64,000 bases of DNA, taken from positions 1,178,001 to 1,242,000 of the forward strand of contig NZ_CP029176.1 of NCBI RefSeq assembly GCF_003352165.1, read 5' to 3'. This document shows positions 38,414-42,071 of the stretch, piece by piece. Within the stretch, counting starts at the first letter, position 1. Each line of letters opens with the position of its first letter. The notes under the pieces are model-generated. The model ran no database searches, was not told the DNA's origin, and saw only the letters and a list, made by a program, of their open reading frames with translations. This DNA is from Acidibrevibacterium fodinaquatile. Its GTDB lineage: Bacteria; Pseudomonadota; Alphaproteobacteria; Acetobacterales; Acetobacteraceae. The position numbers and the translations under genes were made by a program.

Positions 38414-38444
38414 CTTCTTTTTCTGAAGAAAAAGAAGCAAAAAG
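38414..38444. repeat. convergent-gene repeat, copy C, left part (interrupted)
   Basis: CTTCTTTTTCTGAAG followed by AAAAAGAAGCAAAAAG, where the repeat breaks off and the transposon begins. The sequence resumes at 42064, so this copy was intact before insertion. The last eight bases (38437-38444, GCAAAAAG) are the left target-site duplication. Confidence 0.88.
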
Positions 38445-38468
38445 CGGTCTTATGTAGCAAACACCACC
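38437..38468 (+). repeat. left target duplication and terminal inverted repeat of the transposon
   Basis: Target duplication GCAAAAAG at 38437-38444, then the 24-bp inverted repeat at 38445-38468 beginning CGGTCTTATGTAGCAAAC. It matches the right end in 23 of 24 bases. Its inner bases form a further hairpin: ACACCACC (38461-38468) pairs with GGTGGTGT (38477-38484), which may end transcription of the gene stopping at 38498. Confidence 0.92.
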
Positions 38469-38497
38469 AAAGGCGAGGTGGTGTTATGAGACGAATT

Positions 38498-39178
38498 TCA
38501 TGGATAGTCTTCTTCATAGCCTTCATTGGGATTTGTGACGCTATTCCATGGCAGGCCTCCGCGCATTTCCCATTTGTCGAAAGCGATTTTGTCATATCTA
38601 AAGGTTTGCCATCGCACATTCCAAAAAACGTCTCTAAATTCTACCCTTCCTACAATGTGATCATGATTTCCGAAATCTGGAACGCTAATTATAATGTATT
38701 TCTGTTCAGGCCACATAATAAAACGCTCTTTAATTCGCTTGCAAGTTTTGCTATCATCAAACATATCAACATTCATCTCGGGCGGGAGAATGTCTTTACA
38801 ATAAATCAAAATATCTTTTATAATAGCAGACGTCCTGCCAATATTTGCTATAAACAAATTTACGTTATTAAGAGGACTGTTGAGAGTGGCATTTTTATCA
38901 AAATACAGATAAGGTCTATCAGGGAGATTCATTTTTCTTGTTTGCTCCCGCGCGGCTTCGGCCATGGTTTGATAATGCCACAAGCTTTTTTTCATAATTT
39001 CAGAATTGGATCGGGAAATATTAATGGAATCTCTAGAATCGACTACGGCTTTGCGCGTTTCCCACCACAAAAAGGCCGTGAACAGACCCAAGATCAGCGT
39101 GCAGATAGACAAGAAAAATGTGAGTGTAGTAATGGGTTGCCAAGTGCTGGGCGACCACAAACTCTCGACTATGGTCAT
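38498..39178 (-). CDS. membrane-anchored protein of unknown function (transposon cargo)
   Basis: A 226-residue protein with one strong N-terminal transmembrane segment (ITTLTFFLSICTLILGLFTA), a short coiled-coil-prone stretch (about 45-85) and a soluble C-terminal domain rich in aromatics and beta-strand-like segments (LYFDKNATLNSPLNNVNLFI). I do not recognise a family. A plus-strand frame over the same bases (38486-39283) is rejected as its shadow. The ribosome site (AGAGAATAAG) is weak. Host-interaction or exclusion roles are possible but unsupported. Confidence 0.65.
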   Translation of the reverse strand: MTIVESLWSPSTWQPITTLTFFLSICTLILGLFTAFLWWETRKAVVDSRDSINISRSNSEIMKKSLWHYQTMAEAAREQTRKMNLPDRPYLYFDKNATLNSPLNNVNLFIANIGRTSAIIKDILIYCKDILPPEMNVDMFDDSKTCKRIKERFIMWPEQKYIIISVPDFGNHDHIVGRVEFRDVFWNVRWQTFRYDKIAFDKWEMRGGLPWNSVTNPNEGYEEDYP

Positions 39179-39401: not shown

Positions 39402-39428
39402 TTGACATTCGTCTCTGCATACTATAAA
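39402..39428 (+). promoter_or_regulatory. promoter-like sequence for the transposon tRNA
   Basis: TTGACA at 39402-39407 and TATAAA at 39423-39428, separated by 15 bp (slightly short; ATAAAA one base later gives 16). Transcription would start near 39435, giving a precursor with a leader of about 30 nt before the tRNA 5' end at 39465. It implies that the tRNA is expressed on its own. Confidence 0.55.
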
Positions 39429-39429
39429 A

Positions 39430-39471
39430 CCCCCTCCGCTTTGCTCGGTTTTGCAGAGCATAACGGAGGGG
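39430..39471 (+). promoter_or_regulatory. tRNA leader hairpin that pairs with the acceptor strand
   Basis: CCCCTCCG (39431-39438) is complementary to CGGAGGGG (39464-39471), which includes the first seven tRNA bases. Inside, TGCTC (39442-39446) pairs with GAGCA (39456-39460). The 10-mer CCCCCTCCGC at 39430-39439 is an exact copy of the tRNA 3' end at 39550-39559. In a precursor starting upstream of 39431 the leader could compete with the acceptor stem; if transcription starts near 39435 only part of this arm is included. It may also be the scar of a lost tandem tRNA copy. Confidence 0.5.
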
Positions 39472-39561
39472 TGGCTGAGCGGCTGATAGCACCAGACTGA
39501 AAATCTGGAATACGGGGCTGCAACCCCCGTATCGCGGGTTCGAATCCCGCCCCCTCCGCCA
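39465..39561 (+). tRNA. class II (serine-type) tRNA with Phe anticodon GAA
   Basis: A complete cloverleaf with encoded CCA. Acceptor GGAGGGG/CCCCTCC (39465-39471, 39551-39557); D-arm with G10-C25, C11-G24, T12-A23; anticodon stem CCAGA/TCTGG with 7-base loop CTGAAAA, so anticodon GAA at 39499-39501; a 25-nt variable region with an 8-bp stem (39510-39517 with 39525-39532); T-arm GCGGG-TTCGAAT-CCCGC; discriminator G73. Long variable arm plus G73 are the recognition features of seryl-tRNA synthetase, which does not read the anticodon, while GAA decodes Phe UUC/UUU. The loop is one base away from Ser GGA (CTGGAAA). Expected annotation by anticodon is tRNA-Phe, but the body is tRNA-Ser. Confidence 0.9.
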
Positions 39562-39691: not shown

Positions 39692-39913
39692 TCATCCAAG
39701 ATGAAGTGTTTTGCACTCTATGGCATCGAGGCATTGAATCAAAAAAACTGCCGTAAAGCTTCCTCGCGAAAGCTTATTGGAAATGTTCCGTTCGGAGTCA
39801 TGCACTCCTATAGCGGCCAATTTCTCCGACAAATCCCGGTAGCTCAGGTTGCGCTTTTTCAACTCCCCCTTGAGCAGTCCCTTTACCCGGTCTTGCCATT
39901 CCTCATCCGTCAT
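39692..39913 (-). CDS. DUF6471-like small protein (possible transposon regulator)
   Basis: About 73 residues starting MTDEEWQDRVKGLLKGEL. The pattern (KKRNLSYRDLSEKLAAIGV ... ERNISNKLSRGSFTAVFL) suggests a compact helical DNA-binding fold like a Cro-type repressor and matches what I know as DUF6471. Upstream in-frame starts exist up to 39970, but GGAGCGAGG before 39913 and a palindrome overlapping the longer forms favour the short one. It is transcribed divergently from the transposase. Confidence 0.75.
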   Translation of the reverse strand: MTDEEWQDRVKGLLKGELKKRNLSYRDLSEKLAAIGVHDSERNISNKLSRGSFTAVFLIQCLDAIECKTLHLG

Positions 39914-39940
39914 GCCTCGCTCCATATCCGAGAGAAAAAT

Positions 39941-40019
39941 CATCATATATGATGTTTTCCTCATTGACAAGGGGCGCGCAAACCATCATATTCAGTGATG
40001 TTCATCATCATATGTGGTG
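39941..40019. promoter_or_regulatory. three operator-like palindromes between the divergent transposon genes
   Basis: CATCATATATGATG (39941-39954) is a perfect 14-bp palindrome. CATCATATTCAGTGATG (39984-40000) keeps both half-sites with a wider gap. CATCATATGTGGTG (40006-40019) matches the first at 12 of 14 positions. They flank and overlap the transposase promoter, so a small protein such as the DUF6471-like product could repress both genes. The binding protein is inferred. Confidence 0.6.
39964..39992 (+). promoter_or_regulatory. transposase promoter-like sequence
   Basis: TTGACA at 39964-39969 and CATATT at 39987-39992 with a 17-bp spacer, giving a start near 40000 and a short leader before the transposase ATG at 40026. 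The -10 element lies inside the second palindrome, suggesting repression by promoter occlusion. Confidence 0.45.
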
Positions 40020-40025
40020 GTTCCA

Positions 40026-40991
40026 ATGTCTCAGCATTTCCTCCTATCGGCAAAGGCGCGGTCGCTCTCTCTTGGGGCTGTCATGCGCATGGATGATGGG
40101 CTGGTTGAGCAGACATTCCGGGCAATCCGTTGGCCCGATGGCAAGCCGGTCTGCCCTGGCTGCGAGGGCGAGAAGGTCTATGACTGTGTGAGAAACCGCT
40201 TCCGGTGCGCGGCCTGCCGCAAGGATTTCTCTATTACCAGCGGGACTATCTTTGCATCCCATAAGCTGCCTTTGCGCACGTATCTGGCTGCCATCGCCAT
40301 CTTCGCCAATGAGGTTAAGGGTAAGTCGGCCTTGGCGCTCTCCCGTGATCTGGATGTGCAATATAAGACAGCCTTCGTCCTAGCTCATAAGCTGCGCGAG
40401 GCAATGGCGAATGATCTCAAGGGCATGAGGGTTGGCGGGATTGATAAGGTGGTTGAGGTCGATGGCGCTTACTTTGGCGGGTATGTGAAGCCCACGAATC
40501 ACAAGGAGAACCGCCAAGATCGCAGGAAAGCCTCTAATCAGAATGACAAGAGGCAAGTTGTGGTTGTGGCGAGGGAGCGCAAAGGCAAAACCCTGCCAGC
40601 CATCTTTGCCGCCGAGAAGCAATCTCTCCCCTTCATCTCATCGCGAGTTATGAAGGGCAGTCATCTTATGGCCGATGAGGCGCCGTCCTGGAATGATCTG
40701 CATGGGCGGTTTGACGTATCCCGGATCGACCACACCAAAGCCTATTCCATGCCTGAGATGGTGCATACCAATGGCGCTGAGGGCTTCTTTTCACGGTTGA
40801 GAAGGGGTGAGATGGGCCATCATCATCATATTTCCGGGCCATACCTTTTGCGTTATGCTCAAGAGAGCGCATGGCGCGAGGATCATAGAAGGGTTGACAA
40901 TGGCTCCCAAGTCAAGGCCATCATAGACCTCGCCATGCACTCCAAGCCATCAGTGGATTTCTCCGGCTATTGGCAGAGGAATAGGAAATAA
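40026..40991 (+). CDS. IS1595-family (ISXO2-like) transposase
   Basis: A 321-residue transposase starting MSQHFLLSAKARSLSL. An N-terminal zinc ribbon (C43, C46, C61, C64) precedes an ISXO2-like catalytic domain: D146 (VVEVDGAYFGG), D217 (LMADEAP) and a third acidic/amide site in HTNGAEGFFSRLRRGEMG (N249/E252). The length fits the family and the reading frame is intact, so the element may still be mobile. The ATG at 40026 is chosen; an earlier in-frame start adds four residues. No clear ribosome site is visible. Confidence 0.93.
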   Translation: MSQHFLLSAKARSLSLGAVMRMDDGLVEQTFRAIRWPDGKPVCPGCEGEKVYDCVRNRFRCAACRKDFSITSGTIFASHKLPLRTYLAAIAIFANEVKGKSALALSRDLDVQYKTAFVLAHKLREAMANDLKGMRVGGIDKVVEVDGAYFGGYVKPTNHKENRQDRRKASNQNDKRQVVVVARERKGKTLPAIFAAEKQSLPFISSRVMKGSHLMADEAPSWNDLHGRFDVSRIDHTKAYSMPEMVHTNGAEGFFSRLRRGEMGHHHHISGPYLLRYAQESAWREDHRRVDNGSQVKAIIDLAMHSKPSVDFSGYWQRNRK

Positions 40992-41036: not shown

Positions 41037-41237
41037 ATGGGAACAAATAAAATACTCAGAATAAAAGCTCTAGAGGCCGCCAGAGATATTAGAGAGCCAG
41101 AAAACACGAGGCTTTACGACTTGATATGGGACGCCAATCAAATTTATTTCTGGCTTTTCATGGGCAAAATGCCGCCAAATGACTACGGAGTAGAAAATAC
41201 TAATCATTGCACGGGGGGGGGAATACTGCTTAATTAA
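41037..41237 (+). CDS. possible leaderless small ORF (doubtful)
   Basis: A 66-codon frame beginning MGTNKILRIKALEAARD, whose ATG falls about seven bases after the perfect TATAAT and would therefore be leaderless. It lies opposite the C-terminal end of the GIY-YIG-like gene and includes the nine-G tract near its own 3' end. I recognise no family. An antisense RNA without translation is an equally good reading. Confidence 0.2.
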   Translation: MGTNKILRIKALEAARDIREPENTRLYDLIWDANQIYFWLFMGKMPPNDYGVENTNHCTGGGILLN

Positions 41238-41537
41238 ATCACCCTCTATTTCTAAGCGCCGCTTTTCATCATCAACTGCAAGAATGGAAATGCAGTTTGC
41301 TCCGTGCTTGACAAAGCATTCCGCTTTGTGATGATTTATCATTCTATTATAGAGATTTTCTGTTTGACCAAAATAAATATAATTATGATAAAATCCACTC
41401 TTGTCTTGATTCTCAGTTCTTTTGCTTATAAGATATACAACAGATATTGCTTTTAGCACGCTTTGTTGATCGTAAACATCAAACCGATAAGTTTCTCCAG
41501 ATAAACCCCTGATATCTATTTTACCAATTTTTTCCAT
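41070..41537 (-). CDS. GIY-YIG-like nuclease with altered C-terminus (transposon cargo)
   Basis: A 155-codon frame. SVVYLIS (about 32-38) and YIYFGQTENLYNR (53-65) resemble the GIY and YIG parts, R65 and E98 (EIEGDLIKQYSPP) the catalytic Arg and Glu, although the motifs are divergent. At codons 106-109 the gene has a run of nine C (41213-41221 on the other strand). With seven or ten C the frame would close shortly after as SPPCND at a stop at 41200-41202, the usual ending of such proteins; with nine, it reads on about 46 codons into unrelated sequence. The ATG abuts the upstream gene's stop (TAAATG). Confidence 0.65.
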   Translation of the reverse strand: MEKIGKIDIRGLSGETYRFDVYDQQSVLKAISVVYLISKRTENQDKSGFYHNYIYFGQTENLYNRMINHHKAECFVKHGANCISILAVDDEKRRLEIEGDLIKQYSPPRAMISIFYSVVIWRHFAHEKPEINLIGVPYQVVKPRVFWLSNISGGL

Positions 41538-41996
41538 TTAATCTCCCCCATTTGGTTTGTTGCAATCTGAGGAAAGAAACCAAACCGTTGCCGCGCCATC
41601 ACTCTCATTTGCAAACAGCCGACCCTTCCTCCTATGGAGGTCTTTGCGGACCTTCTCTAAGACGAAATTAACGTCCGCCGTGTCAGATAACTCAATGCCA
41701 TATTTTGCCAATAACCGATTCGTGATCTCACGAACCGTCAAGGGGCATGAGGCATCCCGCATGACCTCTAAAATTCCTCTGGCAAAGGTGCCGTGAGGGA
41801 ATATCCGGGATTTGCTCTTGGGCCGAATTGGCGGCAAAAGCCTGTGCTTGTAATTTGGATCAAAGGTCTTGAGGGATAGGGCTATGGCAACCTTTTGCTC
41901 AGATAAGGCTCGGAGTTTCTTGTTGAGGGCCATGATCTCGCCCTCGATCTCGGCATGCTTGCGGATTAGGCCAGATATTACGTGCTCATTATCCAT
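41538..41996 (-). CDS. coiled-coil protein with winged-helix-like C-terminus (transposon cargo)
   Basis: A 152-residue protein. Residues about 1-45 (HAEIEGEIMALNKKLRALSE) look like a coiled coil. A basic linker (PPIRPKSKSRIFPHGTF) leads into a segment with the pattern of a winged helix (ILEVMRDASCPLTVREITNRLLAK). I know no precise function. It is followed without a gap by the GIY-YIG-like gene, so the two are translationally coupled and probably act together. Confidence 0.7.
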   Translation of the reverse strand: MDNEHVISGLIRKHAEIEGEIMALNKKLRALSEQKVAIALSLKTFDPNYKHRLLPPIRPKSKSRIFPHGTFARGILEVMRDASCPLTVREITNRLLAKYGIELSDTADVNFVLEKVRKDLHRRKGRLFANESDGAATVWFLSSDCNKPNGGD

Positions 41997-42039
41997 GCCT
42001 CATTATAGCTTGGGGTAAGGCATGGATGACCGGAAACGT

Positions 42040-42071
42040 GGTGGCGTTTGCTACATAAGACCGGCAAAAAG
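42040..42071 (-). repeat. right terminal inverted repeat and target duplication of the transposon
   Basis: The 24-bp inverted repeat occupies 42040-42063 (ending GTTTGCTACATAAGACCG) and is followed by the target duplication GCAAAAAG at 42064-42071. The single mismatch to the left end is at the 19th base from the outer edge. Confidence 0.92.

Follow-up and report, generated by a model that had tools for sequence, protein, structure and literature searches.

In the genome of Acidibrevibacterium fodinaquatile (G000, 4.04 Mb in 4 contigs), a complete transposon of the IS1595 family carries a tRNA gene that joins a serine-type body to a phenylalanine anticodon, and tRNA genes were found as cargo in several related elements. 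The transposon lies in a 64-kb stretch of DNA, analysed as a whole and called the window below. An earlier note on this stretch had described the serine body, the phenylalanine anticodon and the transposon location correctly, and its overall interpretation is partly supported. We tentatively propose, with somewhat less than an even chance of being right, that the tRNA, if transcribed, is serylated by the host seryl-tRNA synthetase (SerRS) and places serine at phenylalanine codons at a low level, that its output may be low, and that tRNA cargo is recurrent in these elements.

The tRNA gene and its transposon

The features that define the tRNA and the element are the following.

39465-39561, + strand: class II tRNA with a serine body, anticodon GAA (39499-39501), G73 and CCA (ARAGORN, Rfam, stem check, profiles)
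38437-38444, no strand: left target-site duplication, 8 bp, GCAAAAAG, identical to 42064-42071
38445-38469, + strand: left terminal inverted repeat, 25 nt, 96% complementary to 42039-42063; a similar motif stands at the ends of related elements
40014-40991, + strand: IS1595-family transposase, 325 aa (PF12762, E 2.5e-37; PF12760, E 1.5e-9; NF033547, 141.5 bits with a cut-off of 75)
42039-42063, - strand: right terminal inverted repeat, 25 nt, pairing with 38445-38469
42064-42071, no strand: right target-site duplication, 8 bp, GCAAAAAG, a perfect match to the left copy

ARAGORN recognised a single tRNA in the window, at 39465-39561 on the forward strand with anticodon gaa, and the Rfam model RF00005 agreed with it, scoring 62.7 bits (gathering threshold 29) for one tRNA. 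The gene is 97 nt long and of class II, has G73, and encodes CCA in the DNA. All pairs form in the acceptor (7/7), anticodon (5/5) and T (5/5) stems; the D stem has 3 pairs, the variable stem 8 bp, and a single unpaired base precedes the T stem. A chance or pseudogene fold was rejected, since every stem pairs, and the claim of a full, undamaged tRNA with a long variable arm thus holds.

Isotype profiles (nhmmer) trained on fetched tRNAs, many of them from viral contigs, gave 51.6 bits for Ser (114 sequences), 17.3 for Leu (42), 16.3 for Tyr (18) and 15.4 for Phe (16). Among 43 host tRNAs, the four best alignment scores belong to the host's four serine tRNAs (GGA, UGA, CGA and GCU); the host also encodes an ordinary tRNA-Phe with anticodon GAA. 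The gene therefore has the class II body, G73 and profile of a tRNA-Ser without a serine anticodon (NGA or GCU), and the GAA anticodon of a tRNA-Phe without its class I body and A73.

The carrier is 3619 bp long and has a G+C content of 0.46, against about 0.65-0.67 in the flanks. Target duplications of 8 bp are typical of the IS1595 family, and the assignment rests on an ISXO2-like DDE transposase with the IS1595 zinc ribbon, on the inverted repeats and on the perfect 8-bp duplication; in these respects the element resembles the IS1595 transposons with passenger genes. To our knowledge, no IS1595-family transposon with tRNA cargo has been described, and the titles and abstract beginnings listed by literature searches pointed to none. 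At E <= 1e-40 the host genome yielded no transposase relative other than the window copy. In a genome of the same genus (G005) the element is absent, and polA ends there about 40 bases before the hydroxylase match.

Upstream of the tRNA two further features were noted.

39402-39428, + strand: promoter-like TTGACA-15-TATAAA with 11/12 consensus bases, a putative promoter
39431-39471, + strand: hairpin with arms 39431-39438 and 39464-39471, its right arm being the tRNA 5' acceptor strand (folding, z = -4.25)

The earlier note had credited the tRNA with its own promoter. A match as good as the promoter-like site occurs in 0.25% of 2000 Markov sequences of equal length; its spacer is short, and a standard promoter scan with spacers of 16-18 nt gave no site at 39402-39428. 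In the hairpin, the leader CCCCTCCG is complementary to the tRNA 5' end CGGAGGGG, and an inner stem of 5 bp adds to it. A transcript starting at 39435 or later, as expected from the TATAAA box, is predicted to keep the acceptor stem.

tRNA cargo in related IS1595 elements

Regions around related transposases were collected in two sets of 34 and 35 loci, to which 4 loci from viral sequences, 10 from plasmids and 2 more from genomes were added. For tRNA detection, 83 sources (783,307 bases; viral loci L775 and L776 excluded) were scanned with a covariance model trained on 28 tRNAs of the host, and the Rfam scan covered the same 83 sources and L775. The 83 sources hold 48 complete elements with inverted repeats and a target duplication, which is perfect in 47; 37 of the elements exceed 2.5 kb. 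What recurs in these loci is a set of different, mostly odd tRNAs in the cargo, rather than the window tRNA: elements at 7 of the 83 loci contain eight other tRNA genes, and the remaining 76 have none. Apart from that of the window tRNA, the anticodons were read by eye from the sequences.

L677, 10269-10352, - strand: tRNA, anticodon GUU; complete element; mismatch in the D stem
L680, 1371-1442, - strand: tRNA, anticodon AGU; element without a matching duplication or one end; one mismatch
L745, 2581-2663, + strand: tRNA, anticodon UUA; element without a matching duplication or one end
L745, 3146-3219, + strand: tRNA, anticodon UCG; in the same incomplete element as L745:2581
L760, 4400-4514, - strand: tRNA, anticodon CCU; complete element
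L761, 6342-6414, - strand: tRNA, anticodon UGU; complete element
L766, 2751-2825, + strand: damaged tRNA; complete element
L769, 6143-6214, + strand: tRNA, anticodon CGC; complete element

The L760 tRNA aligns best with Ser and has G73, together with the arginine anticodon CCU; it is 115 nt long, with a variable region far above the usual length, and keeps all stems; 3' of it stands a hairpin resembling a terminator, with a run of T. The tRNA at L745:2581 aligns best with Leu and has A73, CCA and an anticodon that reads UAA (ochre). In four cases (L680, L761, L769 and L677) none of the five closest host tRNAs has the isotype that the anticodon indicates, and the matches are not strong, the reference being one genome other than their own hosts. 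At L745:3146 the tRNA is Arg-like in body and Arg in anticodon, and its anticodon stem is damaged; the L766 tRNA has a damaged acceptor and an eight-base loop. The tRNAs outside elements, which were not counted as cargo, are ordinary (L672 Asn, L676 Arg, L755 Gln, L758 Gly): for L676, L755 and L758 the anticodon fits the closest host tRNA, and L672, truncated by the end of its contig, was left out of the alignment. Also left uncounted were an Arg tRNA in L749 (95% to the host gene), which no detected inverted repeat separates from the transposase, and L758:2600-2669, which was too weak (20 bits, E 0.047).

At the related loci, tRNA genes sit downstream of the transposase, mostly between it and the right-end open reading frame (ORF); the window tRNA sits on the opposite, upstream, side. 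The transposases of L760 and L761 are 72.6% identical and their right ends 71.7%, yet the two elements carry different tRNAs, in slots of about 640 bp that are not homologous, which suggests that tRNAs are gained and lost. At L676 (126-209) and L755 (6470-6566; without a matching duplication), elements end about 12 bases or less from the 3' ends of ordinary Arg and Gln tRNA genes, pointing to a preferred target and to a way in which tRNAs could be captured. One target duplication, GATATCTT, was observed in different genomes at L671, L677 and L747, and L677 has two elements side by side with it.

These observations bear on a possible, if doubtful, alternative, in which the window tRNA is a passive passenger: a host tRNA-Ser captured near tRNA genes, barely expressed and drifting, with the GAA anticodon about neutral. 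The range from perfect to damaged among the inside tRNAs, the exchange of tRNAs between L760 and L761 and the capture route at L676 and L755 all agree with it. So does the presence of four of the five anticodon-stem pairs in Ser-UGA tRNAs, by which few changes from an ordinary anticodon arm would be needed. Against it, the tRNAs of the window and of L760 keep all stems despite a changed anticodon, an intact serylated reader of phenylalanine codons is expected to be counter-selected unless silent, and the association of tRNAs with hairpins exceeds what drift would predict.

That association was assessed by folding the 50 nt 5' of each tRNA gene with its first 8 nt, in a comparison devised after the hairpins had been noticed. 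Upstream hairpins with z < -3.5 precede five of the nine inside tRNAs (window, L680, L745:3146, L761 and L769) and are absent from L677, L745:2581, L760 and L766. None of 40 host tRNA contexts had z < -2 (Fisher P 7e-5), and z < -3.3 was reached by 17 of 858 windows placed elsewhere in these elements and folded with fewer shuffles per window (binomial P 4e-7). An upstream 8-nt complement to the tRNA 5' end was found in 3 of 757 tRNA contexts, including the window tRNA and L244. The latter, on a viral contig (1290-1435), is a class II tRNA with anticodon GAA that is 78% identical to the window tRNA and has A73 and no CCA; its leader has 8 nt complementary to its own tRNA 5' end, in a sequence unlike the window leader. 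A conserved leader was rejected, since the predicted L244 fold does not favour leader pairing.

The strong hairpin immediately 5' of the tRNA in five of nine cases also fits a role outside translation, as a structural RNA or DNA element with a tRNA-like fold (a processing signal, a recombination site or a leftward terminator). On the minus strand, the hairpin region of the window is predicted to fold at -29.9 kcal/mol (76 nt), with GUUUUAUAG after the hairpin. Such a role is very unlikely: the tRNAs vary in isotype, orientation and position, 76 of the 83 related loci do without one, and the anticodon loop, G73 and CCA are intact in the window tRNA.

Relatives of the tRNA and the decoy alternative

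The closest ordinary serine tRNA among 385 genomes of the class is a Ser-GGA tRNA (L651), 81% identical. Its acceptor and T arms are the same as in the window tRNA; the D, anticodon and variable stems have other bases yet remain fully paired, which argues that the tRNA structure was long under selection, probably for much of its history and not necessarily since the anticodon change. The window tRNA thus shares with alphaproteobacterial tRNA-Ser the acceptor and T arms, four of five anticodon-stem pairs (L656), G73, the long variable arm and CCA, and differs in the GAA anticodon and a longer variable stem. The suggestion that it is one base from a normal Ser-GGA loop stands for the loop and fails for the anticodon stem, which is unlike that of L651, and a lone G35A mutant of a Ser-GGA gene was set aside on this ground. 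The four pairs in question are common to the alphaproteobacterial Ser-UGA tRNAs L656 and L658; the window tRNA may have descended from a Ser-UGA tRNA by few changes. The pair A31-U39 occurs in 10 of 18 class II GAA tRNAs and in 7 of 87 viral Ser-GGA tRNAs; it was dropped as proof of adaptation, as alphaproteobacterial Ser-CGA tRNAs (L286, L289) have it too.

The 18 sequences come from a pattern search (Ser-type D arm, CUGAAAA loop, long variable region, T loop), which matched 37 stretches in a one-genome-per-species collection (84,980 species) and 50 in viral contigs. A filter requiring at least 4/5 anticodon-stem pairs around the loop was passed by 11 of the 37 genome stretches and left 18 distinct GAA sequences including the window tRNA, of which 12 have 6 or more acceptor pairs. 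It removed Ser-UGA tRNAs with C33, which the pattern also catches and which make up most of the remainder. A class II body of serine type with a GAA anticodon is also found elsewhere on mobile DNA, though rarely. As a separate observation, C33 replaces the near-universal U33 in 69 of 76 collected Ser-UGA sequences, on viral contigs such as L080, L106 and L213 and on certain genome contigs; the search pattern biases this set.

Two of the relatives have a full acceptor stem, G73 and CCA: one in Mesorhizobium (L185), with weak tail-protein matches nearby, and one in Ensifer (L187), with one anticodon-stem mismatch and a clear terminase nearby. Their tRNA sequences recur in the viral contigs L226 and L219. 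Class II GAA tRNA-like genes with imperfect acceptor stems were also seen at L194 (2208-2297) and L205 (839-928), a similar hairpin-like sequence lying 3' of each; that of L194 adjoins a DNA polymerase III beta-subunit gene and an integrase. The viral contigs L516, L539, L563 and L623 hold class II tRNAs with the amber-reading anticodon CUA, labelled Pyl by ARAGORN. Ser-like GCA tRNAs of viral contigs were rejected as a precedent, 34 of 35 having T73 and being Cys-like.

Across 397 genomes of the family the best match to another genome over the tRNA is at most 78%, with one 40-base piece at 93%. The tRNA alone matched no phage record at E 1e-5. The whole element at E 1e-3 matched 34, and among the matches listed these cover the tRNA stretch alone at 72-73%. 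The three phage matches examined are tRNA-Tyr genes of the KPP10 group of Pseudomonas phages, with anticodon GUA (ARAGORN) and A73. They share the class II form, the acceptor strand GGAGGGG and a similar anticodon arm with the window tRNA, which differs in GAA, G73 and a Tyr profile score of only 16.3 bits; at 72-73% identity, part of this likeness is probably general to class II tRNAs. Plasmid matches (19 records) reach at most 77.3% identity, and the four examined are Ser-CGA or Ser-GCU.

The viral company of L185, L187, L226 and L219 raises the question of a decoy or spare tRNA, directed against an anticodon nuclease, another tRNA-damaging toxin or a defence aimed at Phe (or Ser) tRNAs; phages reportedly evade tRNA-targeting defences by means of tRNAs (PMC10264068, PMC11555353). 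The other genes of the element are the following.

38498-39178, - strand: cargo ORF, 226 aa, with no Pfam or NCBIfam match
39692-39970, - strand: DUF6471 protein, 92 aa in its longest frame, divergent from the transposase (PF20075, E 1.6e-29)
41070-41537, - strand: GIY-YIG-like ORF (PF01541, E 2.6e-4; 21.6 bits, slightly under the cut-off of 22.6)
41538-41996, - strand: orfE, a right-end ORF common to many elements of the family, with tblastn relatives at 19 of 34 related loci

The 226-aa ORF has weak matches only, to PHROG 9607 (E 0.0024) and the PADLOC ZorA model (E 0.0076). Relatives of the DUF6471 gene were found by tblastn at 14 of 34 related loci, and orfE (41538-41996) gave no match in Pfam or NCBIfam. 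A run of nine G at 41213-41221 lies within the GIY-YIG-like ORF, where the frame may shift, in the cell or in the assembly. Beyond that ORF and the weak matches, no nuclease or toxin partner was recognised in the element with Pfam, NCBIfam, PHROG and PADLOC, and the anticodons of the related elements (CCU, UUA, UCG, UGU, CGC, GUU, AGU) are too diverse for a single target. A decoy is decidedly unlikely.

Proposed decoding of phenylalanine codons and its significance

SerRS does not read the anticodon; it recognises its tRNA by G73, the long variable arm and the acceptor stem. Given this, and given the precedent of a human tRNA, transcription of the gene would most likely lead to serylation and to the reading of phenylalanine codons. 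The transcript would be processed as a tRNA and charged with serine by the host enzyme through the three elements just named. The resulting Ser-tRNA with GAA would compete weakly with tRNA-Phe at UUU and UUC, with low-level serine in place of phenylalanine as the outcome. The short-spacer promoter, and a hairpin able to hold the 5' acceptor strand of the tRNA, may keep the output low. In the lineage, the cargo slots would habitually acquire tRNA genes, often fronted by a hairpin and mostly with an odd or unclear pairing of anticodon and body.

The human precedent is tRNASer-AAA (Ser-AGA-2-3 G35A), which is reported to insert serine in cells at about 9% of reporter phenylalanine codons (PMC9956149). 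It shares the serine body and phenylalanine anticodon with the window tRNA, and differs in being a eukaryotic allele with a single base change, while the window tRNA is bacterial and transposon-borne. The allo-tRNAs are reported as bacterial, of serine-accepting type and bearing anticodons of other amino acids; they have acceptor/T stems of 8/4 or 9/3, in contrast to the ordinary 7/5 of the window tRNA (PMC7609411). In tRNA-ProX of Streptomyces and Kitasatospora, body and anticodon also disagree, the body being of proline and the anticodons Ala, Asn or Thr, and the part of that report drawn on here mentions no transposon (PMC11415595). A search of open-access literature by titles and abstract beginnings, with most subscription papers outside its coverage, showed among the papers listed no transposon carrying a mismatched tRNA; the nearest case was an allo-tRNA(UAU) pseudogene reported to overlap the ORF of a transposon-related protein (PMC7609411).

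Several findings weigh against this proposal, besides the after-the-fact design of the hairpin comparison. The earlier note had looked to homologous IS1595 elements for conservation of GAA on a serine body, and the outcome is mixed. The combination occurs in none of the 83 related loci scanned and is thus not something that the element conserves, and no second copy of the transposase was found in the genome at E <= 1e-40; the window copy itself is not degenerate, its stems being perfect. Mismatched stem pairs occur in at least three of the nine inside tRNAs (acceptor in L766, anticodon stem in L745:3146, D stem in L677) and suggest decay. A transcript starting at or before 39431 is predicted to fold so that the leader hairpin beats the acceptor stem. 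None of the 14 phenylalanine codons of the transposase faces serine in 17 relatives, and a recoded transposase was rejected, that gene alone being compared.

The enrichment of tRNAs inside elements is modest. The 83 sources gave 13 strong tRNA matches. With L745 and L680 counted, 8 of these fall inside elements (P = 0.003 for an inside fraction of 0.23), and 5 do so when complete elements only are taken (P = 0.14). At host tRNA density the 37 long elements would hold 1.8 tRNAs, with 5 observed (P = 0.035), and the 13 plasmid and viral-contig sources have none. The contrast in identity between inside and outside tRNAs is a stronger point than the enrichment, though the cases are few. A bolder version is unlikely, namely that an alphaproteobacterial IS1595 lineage carries hairpin-tRNA cassettes whose anticodons are mismatched on purpose (Phe or Arg on a Ser body, UAA on a Leu body), as mobile suppressors or decoys that alter translation in the host or against rival elements.

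If serine insertion at phenylalanine codons by the window tRNA is true, a mobile element that installs such a tRNA would be a transferable source of mistranslation. The odd tRNAs spread across related transposons would be natural candidates for learning whether mismatched tRNAs are selected, tolerated or silent.
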